DNA from: Haloterrigena turkmenica DSM 5511
GTDB taxonomy: Archaea > Halobacteriota > Halobacteria > Halobacteriales > Natrialbaceae
NCBI RefSeq assembly: GCF_000025325.1
Contig: NC_013746.1
Location: forward strand, 62,001 to 126,000
Direction of reading: 5' to 3'
DNA length: 64,000 nucleotides
Position numbers and translations under genes: made by a program. Positions 53,214 to 64,000 of the stretch are shown one piece after another; positions within the stretch are counted from its first letter, which is position 1, and every line of letters begins with the position of its first letter. The notes under the pieces were generated by a model. It was not told the origin of the DNA, ran no database searches, and worked only from the letters and a program-made list of their open reading frames with translations.

Positions 53214-54155
53214 TTAACAGAGCCGTTCGAGCGTGTCGATTAGCTTTTGGGCCGTGTTGCTAATCCGGCCAAGCCGGTCAGAGATCGCCTCGGGATCGTC
53301 ACCATTCCACGCCGCAAGGTAGAACGCTGATCCACTCATATCTAGCTCGAAGTAGCGCCCCACAACGTACGCAACGGCTTCGGCTTCCAGCTCGCGTTTT
53401 GACCGCTCATTACGATCCTCAATATCAAAGTGCAACAAGGCGTGGGCGAACTCGTGGATGAGTGTCCCAGCGAGATCCGCTTGGTTGTCTCGATCTTTTA
53501 CTTCGACTCGCGGGCGCATGGTCATCGGACAACGTTGCTTGCAGACTCCCTTCGCTTCCCCATAGTACCACTCGTCAGGGGAGACAATCTGTGCGTCGAC
53601 ATCCAGCTGCTCTGCACTCTCGAGGAGGGCCGGCACTAGATTACTGGCATCTCCATATGCTTCGGTTTCGAGATCAGGAAGCGGCTCTCCGTCGGTCTGC
53701 GAGACATCGAAGACAGCGGTCGGTTTGAACCCGACAAGCCCTTTCGACCACTCCTCGGACTGCGTCTTGTCGTATTCACAATCACTATTTTCGTGGTAGC
53801 TCGGCGAGTTTCCGCATTCGGGACACTGTTTCGTGATGATCGGTGCCCAGATCCAGATCGCGCTCTCGCCTTCTTGGACGTAGCGCTCGAACTCGTTTGC
53901 CCACGTGTTGTACCCTGCAACCCGAGTTGCGTGGGGACACTGGTGCTTGATGAGGAGCGTATTTCGGTACGAGTAGTCGTGGAATTGGCTCTGTACGTCG
54001 AGCCAGGCTTTGAACTCCTCACTGGCTGCAGCGTCGTTGACGAGGTCTGTAAGGTCGTCAACCCACGTTTCGATCGTACTGTTCATCTCGTCGCTGCGCG
54101 TCTCGGTGTCGGTGAACGAGGCTGCTCGCTCTGTGGTCACTGCCATTGGAATCAC
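53214..54155 (-). CDS. ArdC-like antirestriction protein (ssDNA-binding plus metalloprotease domain)
   Basis: 313 aa; the start may be one of the first methionines (54155 or 54146). The N-terminal ArdC-type domain: EEFKAWLDVQSQFHDYSYRN, NTLLIKHQCPHATRVAGYNT, GESAIWIWAPII, interrupted by a zinc ribbon (CPECGNSPSYHENSDC). The C-terminal domain is zincin-like with HEFAHALLHFD (the HExxH motif) and a later Glu in EAEAVAYVVG, like ImmA/IrrE proteases. ArdC proteins protect incoming plasmid DNA from restriction. It is the last gene of the leftward array and is preceded by a leader element at 54189. Confidence 0.85.
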   Translation of the reverse strand: MIPMAVTTERAASFTDTETRSDEMNSTIETWVDDLTDLVNDAAASEEFKAWLDVQSQFHDYSYRNTLLIKHQCPHATRVAGYNTWANEFERYVQEGESAIWIWAPIITKQCPECGNSPSYHENSDCEYDKTQSEEWSKGLVGFKPTAVFDVSQTDGEPLPDLETEAYGDASNLVPALLESAEQLDVDAQIVSPDEWYYGEAKGVCKQRCPMTMRPRVEVKDRDNQADLAGTLIHEFAHALLHFDIEDRNERSKRELEAEAVAYVVGRYFELDMSGSAFYLAAWNGDDPEAISDRLGRISNTAQKLIDTLERLC

Positions 54156-54188
54156 TTGTGTTGACGCTCTCGCCTGCTCGAAAGCGCC

Positions 54189-54219
54189 TCACCCCTCTCA
54201 GGGGAACAACAACACCACT
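54189..54219 (-). promoter_or_regulatory. Leader element, copy 1 (before the ArdC-like gene)
   Basis: On the minus strand GTGGTGTTGTTGTT followed by CCCCTGAGAGGGG, 35-65 bases before the start. Same design as the copies at 54625, 58803, 59797 and 61730. Confidence 0.6.
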
Positions 54220-54254
54220 CTCGTCGCACACCGGATTTCGAGTGAAAAACCGGC

Positions 54255-54611
54255 TCACGGCGGGATGAAAACGCTCTGTTCATCGACGATCTCCTCGAGT
54301 CGATTCTGCGGCCGATGCTCGAAGTAACAGTTGTACGAGCAGTACCCGCAGATCTCACCAGTATCGTACTCGGCTACGAACGGGCCACGATCGGTTACCA
54401 GTCACGACTCCTCGCGAAGTTCTTCAGCTCGCTGGGCTAGCAGTTTGAGGATCGGAAGGCGTTTCTGATGCTGATTTTCATAGGCGACACACGCCTGGAG
54501 TGTCTCCATGTCGGTGATCGTCGTGATTCCCGCATCAATAAGCCGGGGATTCGATGACTCGAGGCGCTGTGCTGGCGTCAGTGGCTCGTCAGTGCAATCA
54601 GTTTCAGACAT
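54255..54611 (-). pseudogene. Small zinc-finger gene with an in-frame TGA
   Basis: 54402-54611 encodes 69 aa (MSETDCTDEPLTPAQRLESS to AEELREES). The TGA is followed in the same frame by LVTDRGPFVAEYDTGEICGY, CSYNCYFEHRPQNRLEEIVD and the end IPP at 54255. The C-terminal CxxC...C part looks like a proper zinc finger but has no start codon, so a 118-aa gene was probably split by one nonsense change (for example TGG to TGA). The N-terminal part may still be made. Confidence 0.55.
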
Positions 54612-54624
54612 CGTGGGAACCTCT

Positions 54625-54655
54625 CACCTCTCGAGGAGAGAAACAACACCACGAG
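54625..54655 (-). promoter_or_regulatory. Leader element, copy 2
   Basis: Minus strand GTGGTGTTGTTTC then TCTCCTCGAGAGGTGAGAGG, 14-44 bases before ATG 54611. Confidence 0.6.
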
Positions 54656-54720
54656 ACAGTGCCGCTGATCTGACGGTCATCTTGGAGCAGCGAGAGAGTC
54701 TCGCCGCCCGTGTTCCTGGT

Positions 54721-55752
54721 TCACTGGTGGTGCGTGTCCTCTCTTGGATTGTCAGGATCCGGACCGTGTCGAGGTGACTGACACCTGGTGCACTCCCAGA
54801 TCGGCGAGTCGGGAATCTCTGGAACTGGTACTTCATCGAAGCCACCGAATGTGTGGCGCGTCGTCTCTCCACACGATCGACACTCCAGATTACGACGAGT
54901 TCGCCCCTCGCGACGGGGGGTCTCGGAGCGATCCGGTGGGGAGACGTGTTCGAGGGCTATTGCGGGAACGATCCAGGTGAGTGTTGGTTCGTCCCGTCGT
55001 GGGTATTCCGCAGTATCCCAGTTGGGATTGGTTCGCTTGAGCGTGCCGCCGGCAATCAGCTGGCCGATCTCCTCGATGTCAGTGATCGGCTCGCCCTCAG
55101 CGTCGAACAGCACTGGATCGAGCGTCGGCCGGTTGTTGGTGTCTTCATCGTCAGCGCTCTCGTCAGCAACGATGGTGTAGTCGTGACCGGCGTTCTGGCG
55201 GATGATATCGAGCTGGCGTTGCCCTTCGATCGTATCGACAGCGGCGGCAGTAGGCAACTGGCCCCACTCACGAGTGAAGCGTGTGACGAGTTCGCCCTCG
55301 AGATCGGCGATGAGTTCACACTCGTCGATGCCGTCGATAGAGGTGGTGAAGGGATCATCAGTCAACCCTTTGTAAACGGCTTTAGCTTTGCTGATGGCGT
55401 TCTGCTCGGTTTTCGCGTCGACGAGAACGTGAACCAGCCCAGTCAGTTCGCGCTTGGTGTCGGGTTCAACCGCCAGATCACCGTAGTCGAGGCTGTTCGT
55501 GAAGCAGAAGTCGCACTTTGTTCGATCGTGAGCGATCTCCGTGCCACACTCGCACCGATTCTCAGCGGTGGAGTCGTCCTCGTGAGACGCTGGTTCAGGA
55601 GCGTCTGGATACCCTACGTGACCGTTCTCGAGCGAGTCGTCGACATGTTCGTAGCTACCATCGTCGACGGCTCTTGAGTCGGTCGCATCGGGGGCAATAC
55701 TACCTTCGTCTTCGGGAGCGAACTCCCGGCGGTCGTCATCGTCGTAGTTCAT
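54721..55752 (-). CDS. Haloarchaeal plasmid protein with two zinc-finger regions
   Basis: 343 aa. An acidic disordered N-terminus is followed by a zinc site (NRCECGTEIAHDRTKCDFC, residues 65-83). A helical central domain follows (DTKRELTGLVHVLVDAKTEQ, CELIADLEGELVTRFTREWG), then ITDIEEIGQLIAGGTLKRTN and a C-terminal finger (LECRSCGETTRHTFGGF, WECTRCQSPRHG). Both ends suggest nucleic-acid or protein binding. The C-terminal finger is shared with the protein at 40785. No function is known to me. Confidence 0.65.
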   Translation of the reverse strand: MNYDDDDRREFAPEDEGSIAPDATDSRAVDDGSYEHVDDSLENGHVGYPDAPEPASHEDDSTAENRCECGTEIAHDRTKCDFCFTNSLDYGDLAVEPDTKRELTGLVHVLVDAKTEQNAISKAKAVYKGLTDDPFTTSIDGIDECELIADLEGELVTRFTREWGQLPTAAAVDTIEGQRQLDIIRQNAGHDYTIVADESADDEDTNNRPTLDPVLFDAEGEPITDIEEIGQLIAGGTLKRTNPNWDTAEYPRRDEPTLTWIVPAIALEHVSPPDRSETPRREGRTRRNLECRSCGETTRHTFGGFDEVPVPEIPDSPIWECTRCQSPRHGPDPDNPREDTHHQ

Positions 55753-56059
55753 GGTGTCGTGGAACCTCTCGGTGTGTCGTCAATTTTCGCTCTTATCCCT
55801 GCCCTCGTTACTCTCCGGGTAGTGGAGTGAAAGTGAAATGAAATCTTGTCAACGAATCAAAAGAGTTATCAATATGTGTTGTTTAATACACATGTAGGGG
55901 ATCAGAGCTGTCAGAGACACCTCATCCGCGCTTTCCGTATGTTTTGCTTTTCTATCGTCGAGGCGATGAGTTGACTCTTCTCTCTCGTCCATAGTCCTGA
56001 ATGCGCTGTGCAGCGGTGCGTTCGCCAAACGAAACTCCACTCTTCTCGATCACTCGCAA
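55753..56059. other. Intergenic
   Basis: About 300 bases without a gene. It includes CATGGTGTCGTGGAACCTCTC just upstream of the 54721 gene, a weak relative of the leader element. Confidence 0.4.
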
Positions 56060-56517
56060 TCACTGAATTCTGAGAATGTTTGTTGGGTGCTGTCTGCACT
56101 CGACCTTGCCGATGAGCGTCGCGACGGCATCGACGCTCCAACTGGGGAAAAGACCCTCGGCACCGAGTGAGCAGGGAAGTGTCGGGAGCGCATCTGGATC
56201 AAGTAGCTCTTCACTATCCGTCTCCTCGATCGTCACCGTGTCAGGGTCGAACGGGACGTCTGCAGGAACGGTCGGTCCGGCACAGATCACGGCGTTGTCG
56301 GTCTTGCACGGACACTTTGTGTAGCCAGTCTCGTACGCGGCGTTGATCCGATCGGCATGCGGCTGGCGGATGCGATGTCCACTCGGTCGTTGCATTTCCG
56401 ACCTGGCTTCGCTCCACACGACGAGCACTCGATCGCCAGAACCGGATGATACGGTTGAGCAACGCCACAATCTTCGCACGTGACGGCTGCTGTCACGGAG
56501 TCAATGGTTGGTTCCAT
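56060..56517 (-). pseudogene. Zinc-ribbon protein, frameshifted
   Basis: MEPTIDSVTAAVTCEDCGVA at 56517 and IECSSCGAKPGRKC in one frame. Then, after a 1-base shift near 56385, PSGHRIRQPHADRINAAYET, TKCPCKTDNAVICAGPTVPA and LPCSLGAEGLFPSWS. The pattern CxxCGAxPGxxC...GHxxxxPHxxR is a known zinc-finger arrangement of small proteins. One indel separates it from a 150-aa ORF. A weak leader element lies at 56523-56550. Confidence 0.6.
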
Positions 56518-56741
56518 GGGGCTCACCCCTCGAGACCGTCGAACAACACATCGGTCGTACTCGCGTCATCCCAGACCGATCTCGCTCACGCTTCCGAATC
56601 GATCGTGAACTGCCCGGTCTCATCGCTCTACGCGGAGGCTGAACCTACTTCGTGAGTACTATTTTACGGTTATTTTCATGCTTATTGCTAGCAGTAGACA
56701 AAGTATTACGACTGCACGCTACGTAGATGTATTGAGGACCC

Positions 56742-57020
56742 ATGAGGATCGTTCAGAACGTGGTTCGCTGGTACAGACTCAACCATGGCGTCGGGAAAGA
56801 GATGCTGGATAGTGGTGCTGAACTCATGCCATGTCCGTACTGTGAAAAGGAGACACCAGTCTTTCAGTCAACATATAATTCGGCAGGGTTGCCAATTTTG
56901 TTCAGTGTCTGTCTCTGGTGTGATGGATTTATTGAATTCGGTGGCGCCTCCCTGCAGCCGCACGAGCCGTATGCAACCGCACACGATCCCCAGAGTGAGG
57001 AGCGGCATTCGAAGCCATAG
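56742..57020 (+). CDS. Small zinc-finger protein
   Basis: 92 aa: MRIVQNVVRWYRLNHGVGKE, LMPCPYCEKETPVFQSTYNS, LFSVCLWCDGFIEFGGAS. CPYC and CLWC pairs bind one zinc. The C-terminal 20 residues are disordered. It reads rightward, opposite to most of the array, and is 23 bases before the next gene. Confidence 0.65.
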   Translation: MRIVQNVVRWYRLNHGVGKEMLDSGAELMPCPYCEKETPVFQSTYNSAGLPILFSVCLWCDGFIEFGGASLQPHEPYATAHDPQSEERHSKP

Positions 57021-57043
57021 TTTGTTCGTTTACCTGTAGAATT

Positions 57044-57454
57044 ATGGATGCTGTTACCGTGACTCGTGACATGGGCACGGATGATTCGTACTCGACCGGT
57101 CTCCTTGAACGAGATACAGAGAACCCGGCTGTTGGAACGTTCCCACCGACCGTGTCGTCGACTGCGTTCGATGCCGTGACCCGTGGCGATCTCATTTATT
57201 GGGGAGAATGGTCGAATCGGGATGCTCTCGTGGTCACGAGGCACCGGTCGGTCTACGACGCCGATTCTCGGTTCACAGAGCTGGGCCAGTCTCTGCTTGA
57301 CAGCGACGGTGCCACTACGCTACCGCCACCTGTCGTGGATCGCATCGAGCAGTGGGCAGCGGAGAAGATCCATTTTGTCCGGGACGAGTCAGTACCGATG
57401 GTCTGCTTGCTTATGGCCGACGACGCGTTTCAGACGCATAGTAACGAAGAATAG
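57044..57454 (+). CDS. Hypothetical protein
   Basis: 136 aa: STAFDAVTRGDLIYWGEWSN, RDALVVTRHRSVYDADSRFT, LPPPVVDRIEQWAAEKIHFV. A mixed alpha/beta protein without motifs I know. Probably co-transcribed with the zinc-finger gene upstream. Confidence 0.6.
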   Translation: MDAVTVTRDMGTDDSYSTGLLERDTENPAVGTFPPTVSSTAFDAVTRGDLIYWGEWSNRDALVVTRHRSVYDADSRFTELGQSLLDSDGATTLPPPVVDRIEQWAAEKIHFVRDESVPMVCLLMADDAFQTHSNEE

Positions 57455-57898
57455 AAAGGTGAGTTGTTATCTCTTCTCGGCTGGAGTGTTCATCCGAAGT
57501 ATCGACCTGATAGAGGTATCCGCGTTCGAGCAGTCGTGTGATCGTGTGTTCAGCATCCGCTCGTTCGAGTACCATCTCATCGGATGCATATAGTACGTCT
57601 ACTGCTTGTTCCCGGTTGGCGGTGGTACAGAACTGTTCTCAAGGACTACCGCGACGGATCTCGGAGATCACCCTCATCATATACTCAACCGGATCTCGTA
57701 TATCATATCCTGATATTCGATAATGGAAAATCCCCTTCGGAAAATCGAGTTCTGGCAGCCCAGGGTGTGTGAAGACTTCTGCACCACCGCCCGACGAGCA
57801 GTATGAACGGTTCATGAGCGAAATCCAAGAATCAGAATCACCGCAGGAGTTCGGCTACGACCACCAAGCTTGGCACGTTTTGCCCTAATAGGGATGTG
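57455..57898. other. Non-coding stretch with a short minus-strand fragment
   Basis: The minus strand near 57445-57640 reads TTANREQAVDVLYASDEMVL, ERADAEHTITRLLERGYLYQ without a start codon. This is probably the C-terminal part of a lost winged-helix-like gene. Nothing else is supportable. Confidence 0.4.
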
Positions 57899-58216
57899 TT
57901 ATTCGCGACTCGAGGTTGTCCCTTCCGTTGCAGCGGTGACCTGGTCAAGAAACTGCTCAATGACTGCACTGGCTTCTCGTTCCAGTTCCTTAGCAGCAGT
58001 ATTGCGAGGAAGTTCATACACCGTGATCTCACCACTCTGGAGGTCAGTGAGTTCGTCTTCACTGCTTTCGATATTGAGGATGGCAGTCCTGAAAATAACA
58101 AGTGCACGTGTTTCGTTGATATCCAAATACTGGATATTGCAGGACTCTAAGGTAGCAAAGAGATCTATTGGAGCGGGGAAAGTGTAGCGCTGAGTGAGAT
58201 CCGAACAGTCATCCAT
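57899..58216 (-). CDS. Hypothetical protein
   Basis: 105 aa: RYTFPAPIDLFATLESCNIQ, YLDINETRALVIFRTAILNI, TVYELPRNTAAKELEREASA. Beta-rich first half and a helical end. Not recognised. Confidence 0.5.
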   Translation of the reverse strand: MDDCSDLTQRYTFPAPIDLFATLESCNIQYLDINETRALVIFRTAILNIESSEDELTDLQSGEITVYELPRNTAAKELEREASAVIEQFLDQVTAATEGTTSSRE

Positions 58217-58602
58217 TATAGTCCAGTGATGGTTCTTTCTTAATAGTCCCTCTTGTCAAATGAATGACTTTTCAAGGCGAATGGCATTCGTTTGTCATCC
58301 GATCCAGATGGTATTCATTCTATCAGGCATTCAGTTTGATTATCTGTCAGGACATCTCTTCTTCCTCAATTTCGGGGAGGATACTATTTTATACGCATAT
58401 GTATACTAGCTGAAGTGAAGCCATGATTCCCTGTCACACGCTCCATGGCTTTGTTCCCACCTTGTCAGTAGACCATTCGTCTTTTGGTGTCTGCCCGTTC
58501 TGCGAATCAACCGGTAACTCACACTTTAGCGCCAGTTAGCTGAGGATGCTTTATGAGGTACTGGTACTTGCCGTCCTGACGTGTGTTCTGGACTGTCGAT
58601 CG
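58217..58602. other. Non-coding stretch
   Basis: About 385 bases, A+T-rich in the first half (TTTTATACGCATATGTATAC near 58387). A short frame with CxxC (HSFGVCPFCESTGNS) near 58490 hints at a lost zinc-finger gene. No supportable gene. Confidence 0.4.
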
Positions 58603-58758
58603 TCATGGTGAGGATCGACCCTCCTCGGCGTTGTTGTCTGCGCTGAGTCCGTCGTAGGGCAGTAGCTGTTCCTCGCTGTCCCCGTCTCCGACGGGCGGCT
58701 GTTCAGAGAGGGGAACGTCTTCGTCGAACGTGTGTTCGTATACGTCTAGGAGTGGCAT
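58603..58758 (-). CDS. Small acidic hypothetical protein
   Basis: 51 aa from ATG 58758: MPLLDVYEHTFDEDVPLSEQ then EEQLLPYDGLSADNNAEEG. Probably disordered. It follows the HalOD1 gene in the leftward array and is preceded by its own leader element and by a GCGTGTA...TACACGC hairpin (58776-58798). Confidence 0.45.
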   Translation of the reverse strand: MPLLDVYEHTFDEDVPLSEQPPVGDGDSEEQLLPYDGLSADNNAEEGRSSP

Positions 58759-58802
58759 GATGATCAGTCTTGGAGAGCGTGTATTGCTTGTACACGCTCC
58801 TT

Positions 58803-58833
58803 CCACCCCTCTGAGGGGGTGAGCAACACCACA
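58803..58833 (-). promoter_or_regulatory. Leader element, copy 3
   Basis: Minus strand GTGGTGTTGCTC then ACCCCCTCAGAGGGGTGG, 45-75 bases before ATG 58758. The stem CACCCC/GGGGTG differs from other copies while pairing is kept. Confidence 0.55.
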
Positions 58834-58880
58834 GAGAATCCACGTGGTACAATCCTTACTGTTGATCGACCGTTCGCGTC

Positions 58881-59135
58881 TCAGGTGTCGCGAACGAGCA
58901 GCATCTTCTCGGTGAGTTTGACGTCGTACTCACCGACTGAGAACGCGACCGACACCGATTCGCCGGTTGTGACGAGTCGATCAAGCGCCTCAGGGTCGAT
59001 CGTGTCGGACAAGACGATCCCGTGGGTTGGTCCCAGCTCGGTTGACGGGCAGTTTTCGAGACTCGCGATTGCTTCGATAATTGCAATGCTCGGCGGCGTT
59101 TCCGACCATTCGTATTCAAGGTGCTCAGTATTCAT
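58881..59135 (-). CDS. HalOD1 output domain protein
   Basis: 84 aa: LEYEWSETPPSIAIIEAIAS, IDPEALDRLV, VSVAFSVGEYDVKLTEKML. Paralogue of 24354-24668. Its start overlaps the end of the DUF7563 gene, so it is translated from the same mRNA. Confidence 0.85.
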   Translation of the reverse strand: MNTEHLEYEWSETPPSIAIIEAIASLENCPSTELGPTHGIVLSDTIDPEALDRLVTTGESVSVAFSVGEYDVKLTEKMLLVRDT

Positions 59136-59286
59136 GATTCACCTCCGCTAGTCCGGCCCCTGCTCCTGAAAATCGCTCGCGCTGGGATCGGCAGTTCGGA
59201 CAGGCGTGGAGCGTTCCGGTGTTGTCCGAAAATACCCGCTTATACTGTTCTGTGACGTGCGCGCCACAGTTCGAACACTCAGGCAT
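59125..59286 (-). CDS. DUF7563-type small zinc-finger protein
   Basis: 53 aa: MPECSNCGAHVTEQYKRVFS then ACPNCRSQRERF. The MPEC.NCG...V...Y.RVF...CP.C pattern is the common haloarchaeal DUF7563 family. It starts 3 bases after the preceding gene and overlaps the HalOD1 start by 11 bases. Confidence 0.8.
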   Translation of the reverse strand: MPECSNCGAHVTEQYKRVFSDNTGTLHACPNCRSQRERFSGAGAGLAEVNHEY

Positions 59287-59288
59287 CG

Positions 59289-59465
59289 TCAGGCCTCCAT
59301 AACCGCGTGTTCGTACATCGCACGCGTCGCCTCGAGTTCGATGATCGAGTCTGCGAGGGTCAACGGTTCGACTAGGTGCTCATCGAGCGTTTGCAAATCG
59401 GCCAGCACTGCTTCGAGTTCGGCCTGCATCTGCTCGTCAGACCAGCTGCCGACGGGGTCACTCAT
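59289..59465 (-). CDS. Small helical hypothetical protein
   Basis: 58 aa: MSDPVGSWSDEQMQAELEAV, LADLQTLDEHLVEPLTLADS, IIELEATRAMYEHAVMEA. All-helical. The start codon overlaps the stop of the upstream gene by one base. Not recognised. Confidence 0.6.
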   Translation of the reverse strand: MSDPVGSWSDEQMQAELEAVLADLQTLDEHLVEPLTLADSIIELEATRAMYEHAVMEA

Positions 59466-59785
59466 CACGACTCACTCTCCGGGCAGCCGGGCGCATGCGA
59501 CAGGTTGTCCTGTCCACCGAGTTCGACCAGCAGCTCGCGTTCGCAGTACGTACACCGGACGTACGCCTTCCCGCCCTGTTCCGGCGGTTCGACATGCCGC
59601 GTGTACGTCGGTTTCTCGGGCTCACTCTGAGTAGCCTCGGCGGCTACGGTCCCGCCGTCGGGAACTAACCGCTCTGTACGAGCAGTCACCTCGGCTTCCG
59701 CACGCAAGCGCCGTTTGCGGGCTGCTTCGGTTTCGTAATGTTCTGCTCGCTGTACAATCTGCTTCAGCTCTCTGAATCGATTCAT
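59465..59785 (-). CDS. Zinc-finger hypothetical protein
   Basis: 106 aa. A basic helical N-terminus (FRELKQIVQRAEHYETEAAR) is followed by a disordered linker and a C-terminal finger: VRCTYCERELLVELGGQDNL, SHAPGCPE (CxxC...H...C). First gene of a group, with a leader element and GGAGGG ribosome-binding site directly upstream. Confidence 0.65.
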   Translation of the reverse strand: MNRFRELKQIVQRAEHYETEAARKRRLRAEAEVTARTERLVPDGGTVAAEATQSEPEKPTYTRHVEPPEQGGKAYVRCTYCERELLVELGGQDNLSHAPGCPESES

Positions 59786-59796
59786 CTGTCAAACCC

Positions 59797-59828
59797 TCCA
59801 CCCCTCTCGAGGGGAGAACAACACCACC
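59797..59828 (-). promoter_or_regulatory. Leader element, copy 4
   Basis: Minus strand GGTGGTGTTGTTCT, then CCCCTCGAGAGGGG, then TGGAGGG and ATG 59785. The hairpin lies directly before the ribosome-binding site. CCCTC of the hairpin could pair either with GAGGGG of the hairpin or with the GGAGGG site. Confidence 0.65.
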
Positions 59829-59885
59829 GAGCGGAGAGCTGGGCGTCCAGTGCTGTCGCTGGGTGTCTTCGTGTCTGATTGAGCT

Positions 59886-60272
59886 CTAGTCAGCTTCTGG
59901 GGTCACTGTCTCTCGATCCCACACTGGCTCCCACTCGCTCTCGTGTCCGTCAACGTGATCTTCATACGCCGAAAACCAGTAGCGATCGTAGCCGCGAGAT
60001 TCGGTCCCAAGCCACTTGCCTGATGCGAGCGCGCCGTACTCATCAGTCTCGGGAATCGGCTCAGCCTCTTCGATGGACCACGTGTACTGGCTGTCGAACT
60101 CGGCGATGAAGCCCTGGTCGCCAGACGGTTCACGCAGCGTACACCGAGTGTTGCAGGTCGCACAGAAAACGCCCTGGTAGACAAGATGTGTCCATTCGTC
60201 GGAGCCACAGACAGGACACTTCACCGTGTCGAACGCACCAGCATACCGCTCTTCAGTGTCGACGATCGCCAT
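59886..60272 (-). CDS. DUF7567-like zinc-finger protein
   Basis: 128 aa from ATG 60272: VKCPVCGSDEWTHLVYQGVF, CATCNTRCTLREPSGDQGF, then an aromatic-rich C-terminal half (WLGTESRGYDRYWFSAYEDH). CPVC and CATC form a zinc ribbon. The start overlaps the stop of the upstream gene. Confidence 0.65.
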   Translation of the reverse strand: MAIVDTEERYAGAFDTVKCPVCGSDEWTHLVYQGVFCATCNTRCTLREPSGDQGFIAEFDSQYTWSIEEAEPIPETDEYGALASGKWLGTESRGYDRYWFSAYEDHVDGHESEWEPVWDRETVTPEAD

Positions 60273-60616
60273 CACTCGTCACCTCTATCTGGACCGATCC
60301 GCGTCACGCGACCGATCCTGGCGTGGGCACCAGCCAGTACCAGCGAAACGTGCTCGAGCATCGAGATGTCGGTCACAATCGTGTTCCCGTCCTTCTGGAG
60401 GACGACGACACCGCTGTCGTGGAGCCAGATAGAGACGCCAATCCCCCAATGATGCCATCGACCTGGTGAGAGTGCTCTCGACGGAAGTGAGAGACTCTCG
60501 TCACCGCAATCGATCGCCGCCTGAATGCCCTGGCGAAGCGCCCACACTTGCGATTCGGTGAGCGTGTCCACGGGTGCGTCAATCTCGTCGACATACGTCA
60601 GCAGATCTGCCACCAT
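60272..60616 (-). CDS. Hypothetical protein
   Basis: 114 aa: LLTYVDEIDAPVDTLTESQV, WHHWGIGVSIWLHDSGVVVL, SMLEHVSLVLAGAHARIGRV. Alpha/beta, no cysteines. Overlaps both neighbours by 1-4 bases, so it lies inside an operon. Function unknown. Confidence 0.65.
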   Translation of the reverse strand: MVADLLTYVDEIDAPVDTLTESQVWALRQGIQAAIDCGDESLSLPSRALSPGRWHHWGIGVSIWLHDSGVVVLQKDGNTIVTDISMLEHVSLVLAGAHARIGRVTRIGPDRGDE

Positions 60617-61080
60617 CAGACCTCACCTCCGATGATCCGATCGATCTCGGCCAGTTCGCGCGCTTCAGCAGCCTCGTCCGCATATCCGACGTCGGTGGCA
60701 TAGCGCTCGAGGACGGCCACGGCTCTATCGTCGTCCGTGGCTGCTCGTTCGAACAGCTTCTCAAAGACGGTGACGACCATCCGATCGGCGACCTGGCGGC
60801 CAGCATCAGCTGCTTCACTTTTGATGCGACCAAGCCGTGACTCGGGATACGCGTAGGTTTTCGAAGGCCTGGACTTCAGATTTGAACAGTAGACGACATC
60901 GAATACGCGCTCATCGTTGGTTGTGTCGAATCGCGAGTTCCCGTAGTTATCGAGCAGATTGTAGTTGTTCACCTCAGACCACTCAGCTACCGTCTGTCCA
61001 GTATCTGCGATCACGTGGACTGGTCGCCCCTGTGCGAGGTCCAAGCAGACGTCACCAAGTTTGATCGACTGTTCGTTCAT
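60616..61080 (-). CDS. Hypothetical plasmid operon protein
   Basis: 154 aa: SIKLGDVCLDLAQGRPVHVI, DTGQTVAEWSEVNNYNLLDN, RVFDVVYCSNLKSRPSKTYA, YPESRLGRIKSEA. The same kind of protein recurs on haloarchaeal plasmids in operons with ArdC and zinc-finger genes. No function is known to me. Coupled to both neighbours. Confidence 0.65.
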   Translation of the reverse strand: MNEQSIKLGDVCLDLAQGRPVHVIADTGQTVAEWSEVNNYNLLDNYGNSRFDTTNDERVFDVVYCSNLKSRPSKTYAYPESRLGRIKSEAADAGRQVADRMVVTVFEKLFERAATDDDRAVAVLERYATDVGYADEAAEARELAEIDRIIGGEV

Positions 61081-61718
61081 CGGCTCACCTCGTCACTGAG
61101 AGTGCGAGCAAGCGTTGCGGCCTGCTGTTCAATCGGCTCGTGGTGGGCGTGTCTGACGTTCAGGAGCGCAAGGTGCGCTCCAACCCCCCACAACTCTGCC
61201 TGGTGCAACTCGTCAGCAAACTCCGTGAGAACGTCGTCAGTCGTCTGGCGACCATCGGTGAGACCGTTGATCCGAGCTGCAATCTGATGAGGGATTGCAT
61301 CTCGACAAGAAGGATCTCGTCCTGTGTAGTCGGCCATCGTCTCGACGAGTCCCGCAAATGCCTCAACACGTCCGTCGACCATGACGTCCCACTCTTCGAG
61401 GTCATCCTCGTCGACGGCGTACGTCACAGCGTCGGGTTCCTGTCTCTCAAGGAGAGCCTCGAGAGCCGCTCGCTTCCAGCTGCGGTAATCACGGAACTTC
61501 CAGAACGTGGCGAACTCTTCGAGCGTCTCGATCGAGTACTCGATTGAGATGTCGGCGCGAACACGCTCGGTCGTCTCGTCACCATAATCAGTGATCCGGG
61601 TAATCGGCCCATTGGCAGTCGCGAGGAACCGTCGTGGAAGCGGCGTCGTGCAGTCGGTTGACTGCGCTTCGTTGGGTGTTTCCGTTGGCTGTGCTGCCGT
61701 CTCGTCTGCTCGTGACAT
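61077..61718 (-). CDS. Hypothetical plasmid operon protein, first gene
   Basis: 213 aa from ATG 61718; the longer frame to 61847 passes through the leader element. Central part SIEYSIETLEEFATFWKFRD, YRSWKRAALEALLERQEPDA; then helical IPHQIAARINGLTDGRQTTD and LWGVGAHLALLNVRHAHHEP. No motif recognised. It heads the four-gene operon 61718-59886. Confidence 0.6.
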   Translation of the reverse strand: MSRADETAAQPTETPNEAQSTDCTTPLPRRFLATANGPITRITDYGDETTERVRADISIEYSIETLEEFATFWKFRDYRSWKRAALEALLERQEPDAVTYAVDEDDLEEWDVMVDGRVEAFAGLVETMADYTGRDPSCRDAIPHQIAARINGLTDGRQTTDDVLTEFADELHQAELWGVGAHLALLNVRHAHHEPIEQQAATLARTLSDEVSR

Positions 61719-61729
61719 CTGTGATACCC

Positions 61730-61760
61730 TCCATCCCTCTCGAGGGTGCAACAACACCAC
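61730..61760 (-). promoter_or_regulatory. Leader element, copy 5
   Basis: Minus strand CGTGGTGTTGTTGCA, then CCCTCGAGAGGG, then ATGGAGGGTATCACAG and ATG 61718. Same order and spacing as copy 4. Confidence 0.65.
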
Positions 61761-61831
61761 GTGCGGTACGTTCGTGCGGATGCTGGTCGACTCTGGCGAA
61801 GTTACCCCACGATTTAGTGTCATTTTCACCT

Positions 61832-61913
61832 CGTGGCAGGGTGTCATAGAAAAGTTCCTATACCCTTTCTCTGTGACTACCCGACAAACGGCAAGTACAG
61901 ACGAAGGTGTTAC
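61832..61913. repeat. Repeat shared with 39959-40042
   Basis: CAGGGTGTCATAGAAAAG, CTATACCCTTTCTCTGTGAC and TACCCGACAAACGGCAAGTA match the other copy with a few changes. It lies just beyond the head of the leftward operon. Confidence 0.6.
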
Positions 61914-62082
61914 CGGATCGGCTATTTACCTCTCTGATAGCTGTCAAAAACAGCATACTGAATGCAGAGGATGTGGTTAGCACGCAGAGCTATTTAATTC
62001 GGATAGCACCGACTGGAACGGTCAATGAGGAGGTTTGGGAATGTATCAGAGCCATTAAACTGCCTGAAGGAAAGATCGAGCC

Positions 62083-62697
62083 ATGAAGTTCGCCGACCGA
62101 GAGCAAGTATACGGACGGGAGGAGTATTACTGGGGTAGAGAGCCAAACGATATGGCCGAGAAGACGGCGGAAATTGCTTCACAGGCCAATTCTGGCATAA
62201 CGGTGATTGACGTTGGAGCCGGTGAAGGTCGGGACGCGGTGTTTTTTGCAGAACAAGGATGGAACGTGTATGCGATGGAGGTTTCTCCGAACGGCCTGGC
62301 GAAGGCCAAACGTCTTGCCAACGAGCGAAAGGTGTCCCTCCAGACAATCGAAGCTGATGCAAACGACGCCACCTTCCCCGAAGCGGTTGACGTAGTTTAT
62401 TCGGCCGGTGCGATTCAATATATCCGACCTGAGAACCGGGACCGACAGTTCAACCACTTCAAAGAGAAAACGACTGTCGATGGGGTTCACGCAATGTTCG
62501 CTTTCGTGGATCATCCTGACGTTCCGACCGCACCGGACTGGACGGAACGCGAGTATTTCTACGCACGAGGCGAGCTGATGAAATACTACCGTGACTGGGA
62601 GGTCCTCGAATTTGAAGAGGTGATCTTTGACGACGAATCGGGGAGTGAACCCCACCGACACGCAGCAGAGATACTGTTCGCACGGAAACCAAACTAA
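62083..62697 (+). CDS. SAM-dependent methyltransferase (TehB-like)
   Basis: 204 aa. MKFADREQVYGREEYYWGRE, then motif I VIDVGAGEGRDAVFFAEQG (41-59), motif II MEVSPNGLAKAKRLA, VEADANDA-type motif III (IEADANDATF) and VVYSAGAIQYI. The arrangement is like TehB-type methyltransferases that act on oxyanions (tellurite) or other small molecules. The substrate cannot be read from the sequence. It stands alone. Confidence 0.85.
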   Translation: MKFADREQVYGREEYYWGREPNDMAEKTAEIASQANSGITVIDVGAGEGRDAVFFAEQGWNVYAMEVSPNGLAKAKRLANERKVSLQTIEADANDATFPEAVDVVYSAGAIQYIRPENRDRQFNHFKEKTTVDGVHAMFAFVDHPDVPTAPDWTEREYFYARGELMKYYRDWEVLEFEEVIFDDESGSEPHRHAAEILFARKPN

Positions 62698-63847: not shown

Positions 63848-64000
63848 TCACGACGCCGGCGGACTCGCTGTGGCCTGCAACCCGCAGGCCTCGAGTTCTC
63901 GAATCCGCTGTGCGTTGCGTGCAGCCTCGAGAACGGACGTTCGGATCGCGACTGCAACCCGATGTTTGCATGCACCCTGGTGGTGTTCGTCTGCTGGACA
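63848..64000 (-). CDS. SWIM zinc-finger protein, C-terminal part, cut by window edge
   Basis: The frame is open from the right edge to TGA at 63848-63850: DEHHQGACKHRVAVAIRTSV, LEAARNAQRIRELEACGLQA. The ACKHRVAVAI is the C-H end of a SWIM finger (CxC...CxH), usual in haloarchaeal SWIM proteins. The first Cys pair lies beyond the window. Confidence 0.65.
   Translation of the reverse strand, partial: CPADEHHQGACKHRVAVAIRTSVLEAARNAQRIRELEACGLQATASPPAS

Follow-up and report, generated by a model that had tools for sequence, protein, structure and literature searches.

A short box-and-hairpin leader shared by many accessory genes of haloarchaeal plasmids, with translation initiation as its most likely site of action

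In a 64,000-nucleotide stretch of Haloterrigena turkmenica DSM 5511 DNA (hereafter the window; positions 62001-126000 of C4, a 180,781-base contig of a 5.44-Mb haloarchaeal genome), a short leader consisting of a conserved box, a hairpin and usually a Shine-Dalgarno (SD) sequence recurs before genes. Whether by retention or by spread, it has come to stand before genes of at least 20 families on large plasmids, an ArdC-like anti-restriction gene among them. The shared, start-associated leader of haloarchaeal plasmids is real, and it is undescribed in the sources searched: the open-access literature that we searched holds no description of it, and a search of Rfam release 15 with positions 53900-62100 on both strands matched none of its curated covariance models with an E-value up to 1. 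This agrees with an earlier note on this DNA, made from the sequence alone, whose author knew of no description. The site of action is most likely translation initiation, together with a putative partner. With moderate confidence, we interpret the element as a cis-acting mRNA leader that would have been kept or copied before many accessory genes of haloarchaeal conjugation-type plasmids, and that would place them under one shared control at the level of translation.

Five clear copies of the leader lie in the window, all on the minus strand, with the 5' ends of their boxes at 61760, 59827, 58832, 54652 and 54218. A search of the window for the box GTGGTGTTGTT, allowing for no more than one mismatch, gave six matches against 0.74 expected, and none of 100 shuffles reached six; the six matches represent five sites, as one match overlaps another inside the same copy. 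A covariance model trained on 18 copies, in which the window copies are included or which they resemble, scored the copies at 59794-59827, 61727-61760, 58799-58832, 54186-54218 and 54619-54652 with 56.1, 50.9, 43.4, 28.0 and 23.2 bits, respectively (E-values from 8e-14 to 2e-4). When the ribosome-binding site was included in a stricter pattern with two gaps, 59796-59827 and 61729-61760 alone matched in the window, with 0 matches expected. According to the covariance model, C4 carries nine copies in total, all on one strand, and four of them are located beyond the window end at C4:126470, 127636, 138163 and 155279. The claim of the earlier note that a shared leader recurs before at least five genes is thus borne out and extended by these four copies.

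Altogether, 139 distinct leader copies were gathered, and their consensus order is a 12-letter box GTGGYGTTGNTC, a C-rich/G-rich hairpin, T(G/A)GAGGG, 7-10 nt and the ATG. In class A leaders, which are ~45 nt long, the distance from the end of GGAGGG to the ATG shows a sharp peak at 7-10 nt (76 of the 118 copies with a called open reading frame, ORF). In class B leaders, which are ~75 nt long, the ATG is ~37-41 nt off and a second hairpin stands in between, as in the window copies at 58799-58832 and 54186-54218. The earlier description of a hairpin often followed by GGAGGG and the ATG therefore fits the copies that had been placed at 59797 and 61730, but the copy at 54625 has GAGAGG, and those at 58803 and 54189 belong to class B with the ATG ~40 nt away. 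The leaders in the window and the genes behind them are as follows.

61716-61760, minus strand: class A leader with the box at 61750-61760, the hairpin CCCT-CGAG-AGGG at 61735-61746, the SD GGAGGG at 61727-61732 and the ATG at 61716-61718.
61077-61718, minus strand: 213-aa gene of unknown family, the first behind the 61760 leader, opening a co-directional run from 61718 to 59886.
59783-59827, minus strand: class A leader with the box at 59817-59827, the hairpin CCCCT-CGAG-AGGGG at 59801-59814, the SD GGAGGG at 59794-59799 and the ATG at 59783-59785.
59465-59785, minus strand: 106-aa protein with a zinc-finger-like CxxC motif, belonging to element-associated family 1 (16 members).
58756-58832, minus strand: class B leader with the box at 58822-58832, hairpin 1 at ~58805-58821, the SD-like GGAAGG at 58799-58804, hairpin 2 at ~58776-58798 and the ATG at 58756-58758.
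58603-58758, minus strand: 51-aa acidic protein behind this class B leader; its homologues on other plasmids carry the same leader.
56515-56552, minus strand: probable divergent leader variant (the "weak copy"), GATGTGTTGTTC...GGTCTCGAGGGGTGAGCCCC-ATG.
56287-56517, minus strand: 76-aa zinc-ribbon-like ORF behind the divergent variant.
54609-54652, minus strand: class A leader with the box at 54642-54652, the hairpin in the TCTCTCCTCGAGAGGTGAGAG region, the SD GAGAGG and the ATG at 54609-54611.
54402-54611, minus strand: 69-aa protein of unknown family behind the 54652 leader.
54144-54218, minus strand: class B leader with the box at 54208-54218, hairpin 1 CCCCTGAGAGGGG, hairpin 2 GCGCTTTCGAGCAGGCGAGAGCGT, the weak SD AAGTGA and the ATG at 54144-54146.
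53214-54146, minus strand: ArdC-like anti-restriction protein with weak ArdcN and M78 peptidase matches, slightly below the Pfam cut-offs.

The site at 56552, which had been listed earlier as a weak copy at 56523, scored at chance level with the covariance model (11.5 bits, E 1.5). However, this leader (TGTGTTGTTC...GGTCTCGAGGG...ATG) is kept before the homologous zinc-ribbon-like gene on five plasmids. Considering that the upstream DNA differs among these plasmids, the 56552 site probably is a real, divergent variant of the leader.

The leader is associated with the starts of unrelated genes. An ATG opening at least 40 codons was found 3-12 nt downstream in 82 of the 139 copies in the sense orientation, in 11 of 139 in the antisense orientation and at 4.1% of random positions. 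The leaders precede 36 protein clusters, among which are ArdC, several zinc-ribbon families, a C5-methyltransferase-like protein and many unknowns. Because starts are uncertain in some of these clusters, the claim is limited to at least 20 unrelated protein families, and with so many credible families behind the leaders, shared ancestry of one gene is no explanation. In 44 leaders with unrelated upstream sequence, box positions 1, 2, 4, 6, 7, 9 and 11 were near-invariant, with positions 6 and 7 being invariant. Recent duplication, which the earlier note had named as an outcome that would undo its proposal, is ruled out as the sole cause by the 36 protein clusters and the 44 distinct upstream regions. 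Separately, boxes in front of different gene families have a common upstream flank, GCACGAACGYACCGCAC (for example at 61761-61785 of the window and at loci L022 and L027). This suggests recombination between leaders or shuffling of gene cassettes, so local recombination may have contributed to the spread.

The leaders often sit in the sense orientation between co-directional genes. In the 150 nt upstream, the AT content is flat at ~0.42, and just two TATA-like words were found in the 44 distinct upstream regions. The earlier proposal of a post-transcriptional element is in keeping with this placement at the translation starts of many genes, in the sense direction, often in co-directional runs and without an adjacent promoter signature. 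Considering the sense orientation, the co-directional genes and the lack of a TATA-like signal upstream, a leader at the level of translation is the best reading. A plasmid transcription factor could instead use the element as a double-stranded DNA operator to control or silence many promoters, and the conserved asymmetric box with its near-palindromic CCCTCGAGAGGG core, as well as several helix-turn-helix regulators annotated on related plasmids, would suit such a role. We regard an operator as improbable, since the upstream region without an AT-rich or TATA signal, the fixed distance to the ATG and the single orientation favour mRNA, and class A has no space for a leaderless promoter between the leader and the ATG.

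The region between the box and the SD folds with a mean energy of -5.7 kcal/mol, compared with -2.4 kcal/mol for composition shuffles (mean z of -2.0; z < -1 in 91%). When native leaders were compared with chimeras of swapped halves, the values were -5.73 and -5.46, respectively, and 2-4 of 5000 permutations were at or below the native value; for 50 gene-diverse copies, this was the case in 53 of 5000 permutations. These comparisons used a fixed split, and an arm-based version was dropped because its arms had been chosen from the native pairing. Of the cells in the model alignment, 79.5% are paired. There is good support for the hairpin as a unit that is conserved and able to fold, and its pairing as RNA is likely.

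For the clearest copies, the earlier note further proposed an on/off choice, in which the CCCTC arm can pair with GAGGG of the hairpin or, alternatively, with the SD. Such a riboswitch-like choice is thermodynamically possible in the 59827 copy, as the fold of 59782-59827 pairs the arm in part with the SD region, and both pairings are present in the ensemble values of a close homologue of this copy, L127. However, the arm does not alternate between hairpin and SD in most copies: in 24 gene-diverse class A leaders, the median number of expected pairs was 0.73 between arm and SD, compared with 3.3 in the local hairpin, so that the choice is not conserved, and class B keeps the box and hairpin 1 without an adjacent SD. 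As a general mechanism it is very unlikely. The SD in class A as against the second hairpin in class B suggests that the fixed part is the box plus hairpin 1 and not the masking of the SD. As a separate observation on class B, the hairpin-2 loops GAACAAGCAA and ACAAGCAAUA (L080:7272-7306 and L076:9080-9113) are complementary to the box end. Box-complementary loops are found in L076, L080 and L134, and the members L072 and L139 are without them, which suggests a possible pseudoknot in some class B leaders.

Among 391 Halobacteria genomes, the pattern box-N-CCTC-N-GAGG forms clusters in Natrialbaceae only, and the reversed control pattern gave zero matches. Across 84,980 species, real matches were found on plasmids 1-4 of Natrinema zhouii and on contigs of Natrialba taiwanensis, Natrialba asiatica, Natrialba aegyptia, Natronococcus jeotgali and Natronococcus pandeyae; the other matches, in bacteria and metagenome-assembled genomes, look like chance. 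Annotated relatives also include plasmids of Natrinema sp. SYSU A 869, Natronococcus sp. AD-5 and Natrononativus amylolyticus. In viral contigs, ten pattern matches were chance-like, and the SD-extended pattern gave zero. Of 125 Natrialbaceae genomes, 23 had matches to a covariance model (R1), and in 12 of them the matches form clusters, on plasmids or contigs. One of the Natrialbaceae genomes, G411, has the most copies of any (35), which are spread across many contigs (L112-L125) and in some cases precede C5-methyltransferase-like genes. A broader model (R2) found single copies with 37-41 bits in ~55 further genomes outside Natrialbaceae, in other Halobacteria families.

The R2 single copies that were examined represent one leader, in which GTAGCGTTGTTC, hairpin 1, hairpin 2, GAGGTGA and the ATG are followed by a DUF6735 gene. 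This single-copy, two-hairpin leader of 75 nt is almost invariant across several Halobacteria families (L228:300-690; homologues L227-L286). Leader and gene together are present with full coverage on 56 haloarchaeal plasmid records and were not found in the phage collection, and the open-access literature searched holds nothing on DUF6735. In hairpin 2 of this leader, 94% of pairing is kept, mainly via changes from G-C to G-U, and G-U pairs are more frequent than A-C mismatches. RNAalifold paired the box with the 5' arm of hairpin 2 via many G-U pairs in the DUF6735 leaders; this pairing was not adopted, as it rests on near-invariant columns. On many DUF6735 plasmids, the sequence ...GACGAGTAG runs from upstream across the box, and this would be consistent with the stop codon of an upstream gene overlapping the box.

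Pairing of the box with 16S rRNA, for which the query was the whole 4.5-kb locus, no exact 3'-end anchor having been found, was no better than that of shuffled boxes, and pairing with the spacer or with hairpin 2 was not above chance. A search of C4 for the exact complement of the box, as an antisense RNA would carry it, matched only the leaders themselves. Considering that the box is conserved without a partner in cis, a trans-acting factor is the best explanation, and we infer that the box is its recognition site. Alternatively, the box and hairpin could be a strong, self-contained ribosome entry site of plasmid operons, that is, a constitutive enhancer of translation initiation that needs no regulator. 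The position directly before the SD and ATG, the same arrangement before any gene, and the single-copy form in genomes without the plasmid zinc-ribbon gene described below would agree with an enhancer. It seems unlikely, since the conservation of the box far exceeds the needs of ribosome binding, the 16S rRNA pairing does not stand out, and the leader is limited to plasmid-type loci and not found on host genes, with no chromosomal copy found in genome G000.

For the shared translation-level control that we favour, the GUGGYGUUGNUC box and the hairpin would be bound by a trans-acting factor, either protein or RNA, from the plasmid or the host. Bound beside the ribosome entry site, the factor would raise or lower initiation gene by gene on a long co-directional transcript. 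In class A its target would be the adjoining SD, and in class B the second hairpin would lie between the box-hairpin unit and the start. A candidate factor is encoded beyond the window end by a 73-aa zinc-ribbon gene (C4:126238-126459), which is itself behind a leader. This gene is present in exactly 11 of the 125 genomes, all of which have leader clusters (11 of the 12 cluster genomes); a SWIM zinc-finger gene is broader, with 44 of the 125. The predicted structure of the 73-aa protein has modest confidence, with a predicted local distance difference test score (pLDDT) of 71, and no fold match in the PDB. It is conceivable, if doubtful, that a plasmid RNA-binding regulator, possibly this zinc-ribbon protein, coordinates the translation of an accessory/establishment regulon via the box-hairpin leader, with the DUF6735 form across Halobacteria being a relic or read by the host. 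If true, the genes of such a regulon would form an operon-of-operons at the post-transcriptional level on conjugation-type plasmids of archaea.

Several observations weigh against the shared control at the level of translation. Class B has no SD next to the ATG, and in the model haloarchaeon Haloferax volcanii translation did not depend on SD motifs in the 5' untranslated region (PMC3986360). Covariation does not prove RNA folding, as there are few compensatory double changes (11 double-change cells, compared with 7.3 after shuffling, and a single cell in hairpin 2 of the DUF6735 leader). The low number is due to the arms being mostly fixed runs of C and G. As such, the statement of the earlier note that the arms differ but still pair holds only modestly, in the small, significant advantage of native leaders over chimeras, but the arms themselves are mostly conserved. 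The motif search for covariation across haloarchaeal genomes and plasmids likewise revealed a widespread leader with modest compensatory support. Furthermore, genome G375 has four leader copies without the 73-aa zinc-ribbon gene; because of this exception, and because a shared plasmid backbone would give the same co-occurrence, the protein is a candidate only.

C4 encodes a VirB4/HerA-like ATPase, a coupling-protein-like protein, an archaeal-type primase small subunit, an Ssb-like OB protein and ArdC, and owing to these genes it is plausibly a conjugation-type plasmid. From 63848-64000 of the window onward (C4:125848-167251), the SWIM zinc-finger, 73-aa zinc-ribbon, Ssb-like OB, primase small subunit, coupling-protein-like and VirB4/HerA-like ATPase genes form a backbone that is common to other leader-bearing plasmids. 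A small protein starting with MxDLTxFQRDLLYxIAG, in our judgement PadR-like, has copies at C4:32279, 38036, 99605 (37605 of the window) and 136621 and is kept on other leader-bearing plasmids.

The establishment-gene regulatory sequence EGeRS1 of the conjugative Bacillus plasmid pLS20 is a conserved, multi-branched element of 420-750 bp with inverted repeats; its five copies precede ardC and other operons and adjoin the ribosome-binding site on its upstream side, and a test of the EGeRS1-B region detected no constitutive promoter (PMC8708921). The repeated EGeRS1 leaders of pLS20, which stand ahead of ardC and further establishment operons (PMC8708921), together with ArdC, the VirB4-like and coupling-protein-like ATPases, the primase small subunit and the Ssb-like protein of C4, would also suit a plasmid-establishment element that acts on transferred single-stranded DNA as a hairpin promoter or loading site and turns on ArdC and anti-defence genes in the recipient. 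This appears highly improbable, as hairpins of 4-7 bp are too small for an archaeal promoter and there is no TATA element, no relaxase was identified, the PLSDB records listed are typed non-mobilizable, and the spacing of SD and ATG indicates mRNA. Returning to an mRNA leader, the haloarchaeal element resembles EGeRS1 in standing directly before the ribosome-binding site of ardC (here 54186-54218 before ArdC) and of further unrelated genes. It differs in its length of 45-75 nt and its one or two hairpins in place of a multi-branched fold; EGeRS1 is bacterial, has no GTGGYGTTGNTC box and is placed per operon, whereas the haloarchaeal leader is placed per individual gene inside runs.

In cluster K mycobacteriophages, the start-associated sequence (SAS) has a 13-bp core, GGGATAGGAGCCC, 3-7 bp before the ATG of many unrelated genes; it is asymmetric, contains an SD core, occurs in one orientation and has an inverted repeat in about half of the cases, and a role in translation initiation was proposed, its function being unknown (PMC3203893). 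The 17-bp repeats of the extended form (ESAS) were judged unlikely to pair as RNA (PMC3203893). Like SAS/ESAS, the haloarchaeal leader is start-associated, has one orientation (82 sense and 11 antisense of 139) and precedes unrelated genes (36 clusters) of one mobile element. In contrast, its box GTGGYGTTGNTC and its SD TRGAGGG differ from GGGATAGGAGCCC, SAS/ESAS come from a bacterial virus, and the haloarchaeal hairpin, unlike the ESAS repeats, forms in nearly all copies. The leader is therefore analogous to EGeRS1 and SAS/ESAS and not a member of either, because it has their arrangement and not their sequences or lengths. EGeRS1 seems to be the most telling functional parallel because C4 is plausibly a conjugation-type plasmid, and SAS/ESAS appear closest in size and position.

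Phage translational operators, such as those of T4 RegA and the MS2 coat protein, are leader sites beside the start codon that are bound by an RNA-binding protein. Like them, the haloarchaeal leader is conserved and structured and lies at the ribosome-binding sites of several genes, and such a site by the start codon would let one protein govern several genes. It differs in that its box stands upstream, separated from the start codon by the hairpin, and in that its cognate protein is putative. To our knowledge, hardly any archaeal regulons are known to be controlled through a single common mRNA leader. With the haloarchaeal leader, post-transcriptional regulation by an archaeal mobile element can be put to a concrete test, and the leader serves as a sequence handle for the accessory/establishment regulon of large haloarchaeal plasmids, most genes of which are unnamed. 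Among the neighbouring genes of the window, a 343-aa gene at 54721-55830 matches the NCBIfam model "biosurfactant protein 1" (E 4e-52, below the model cut-off) and has its own conserved leader, which is without the box and contains an inverted repeat (ctCCGGGTAGtgg).

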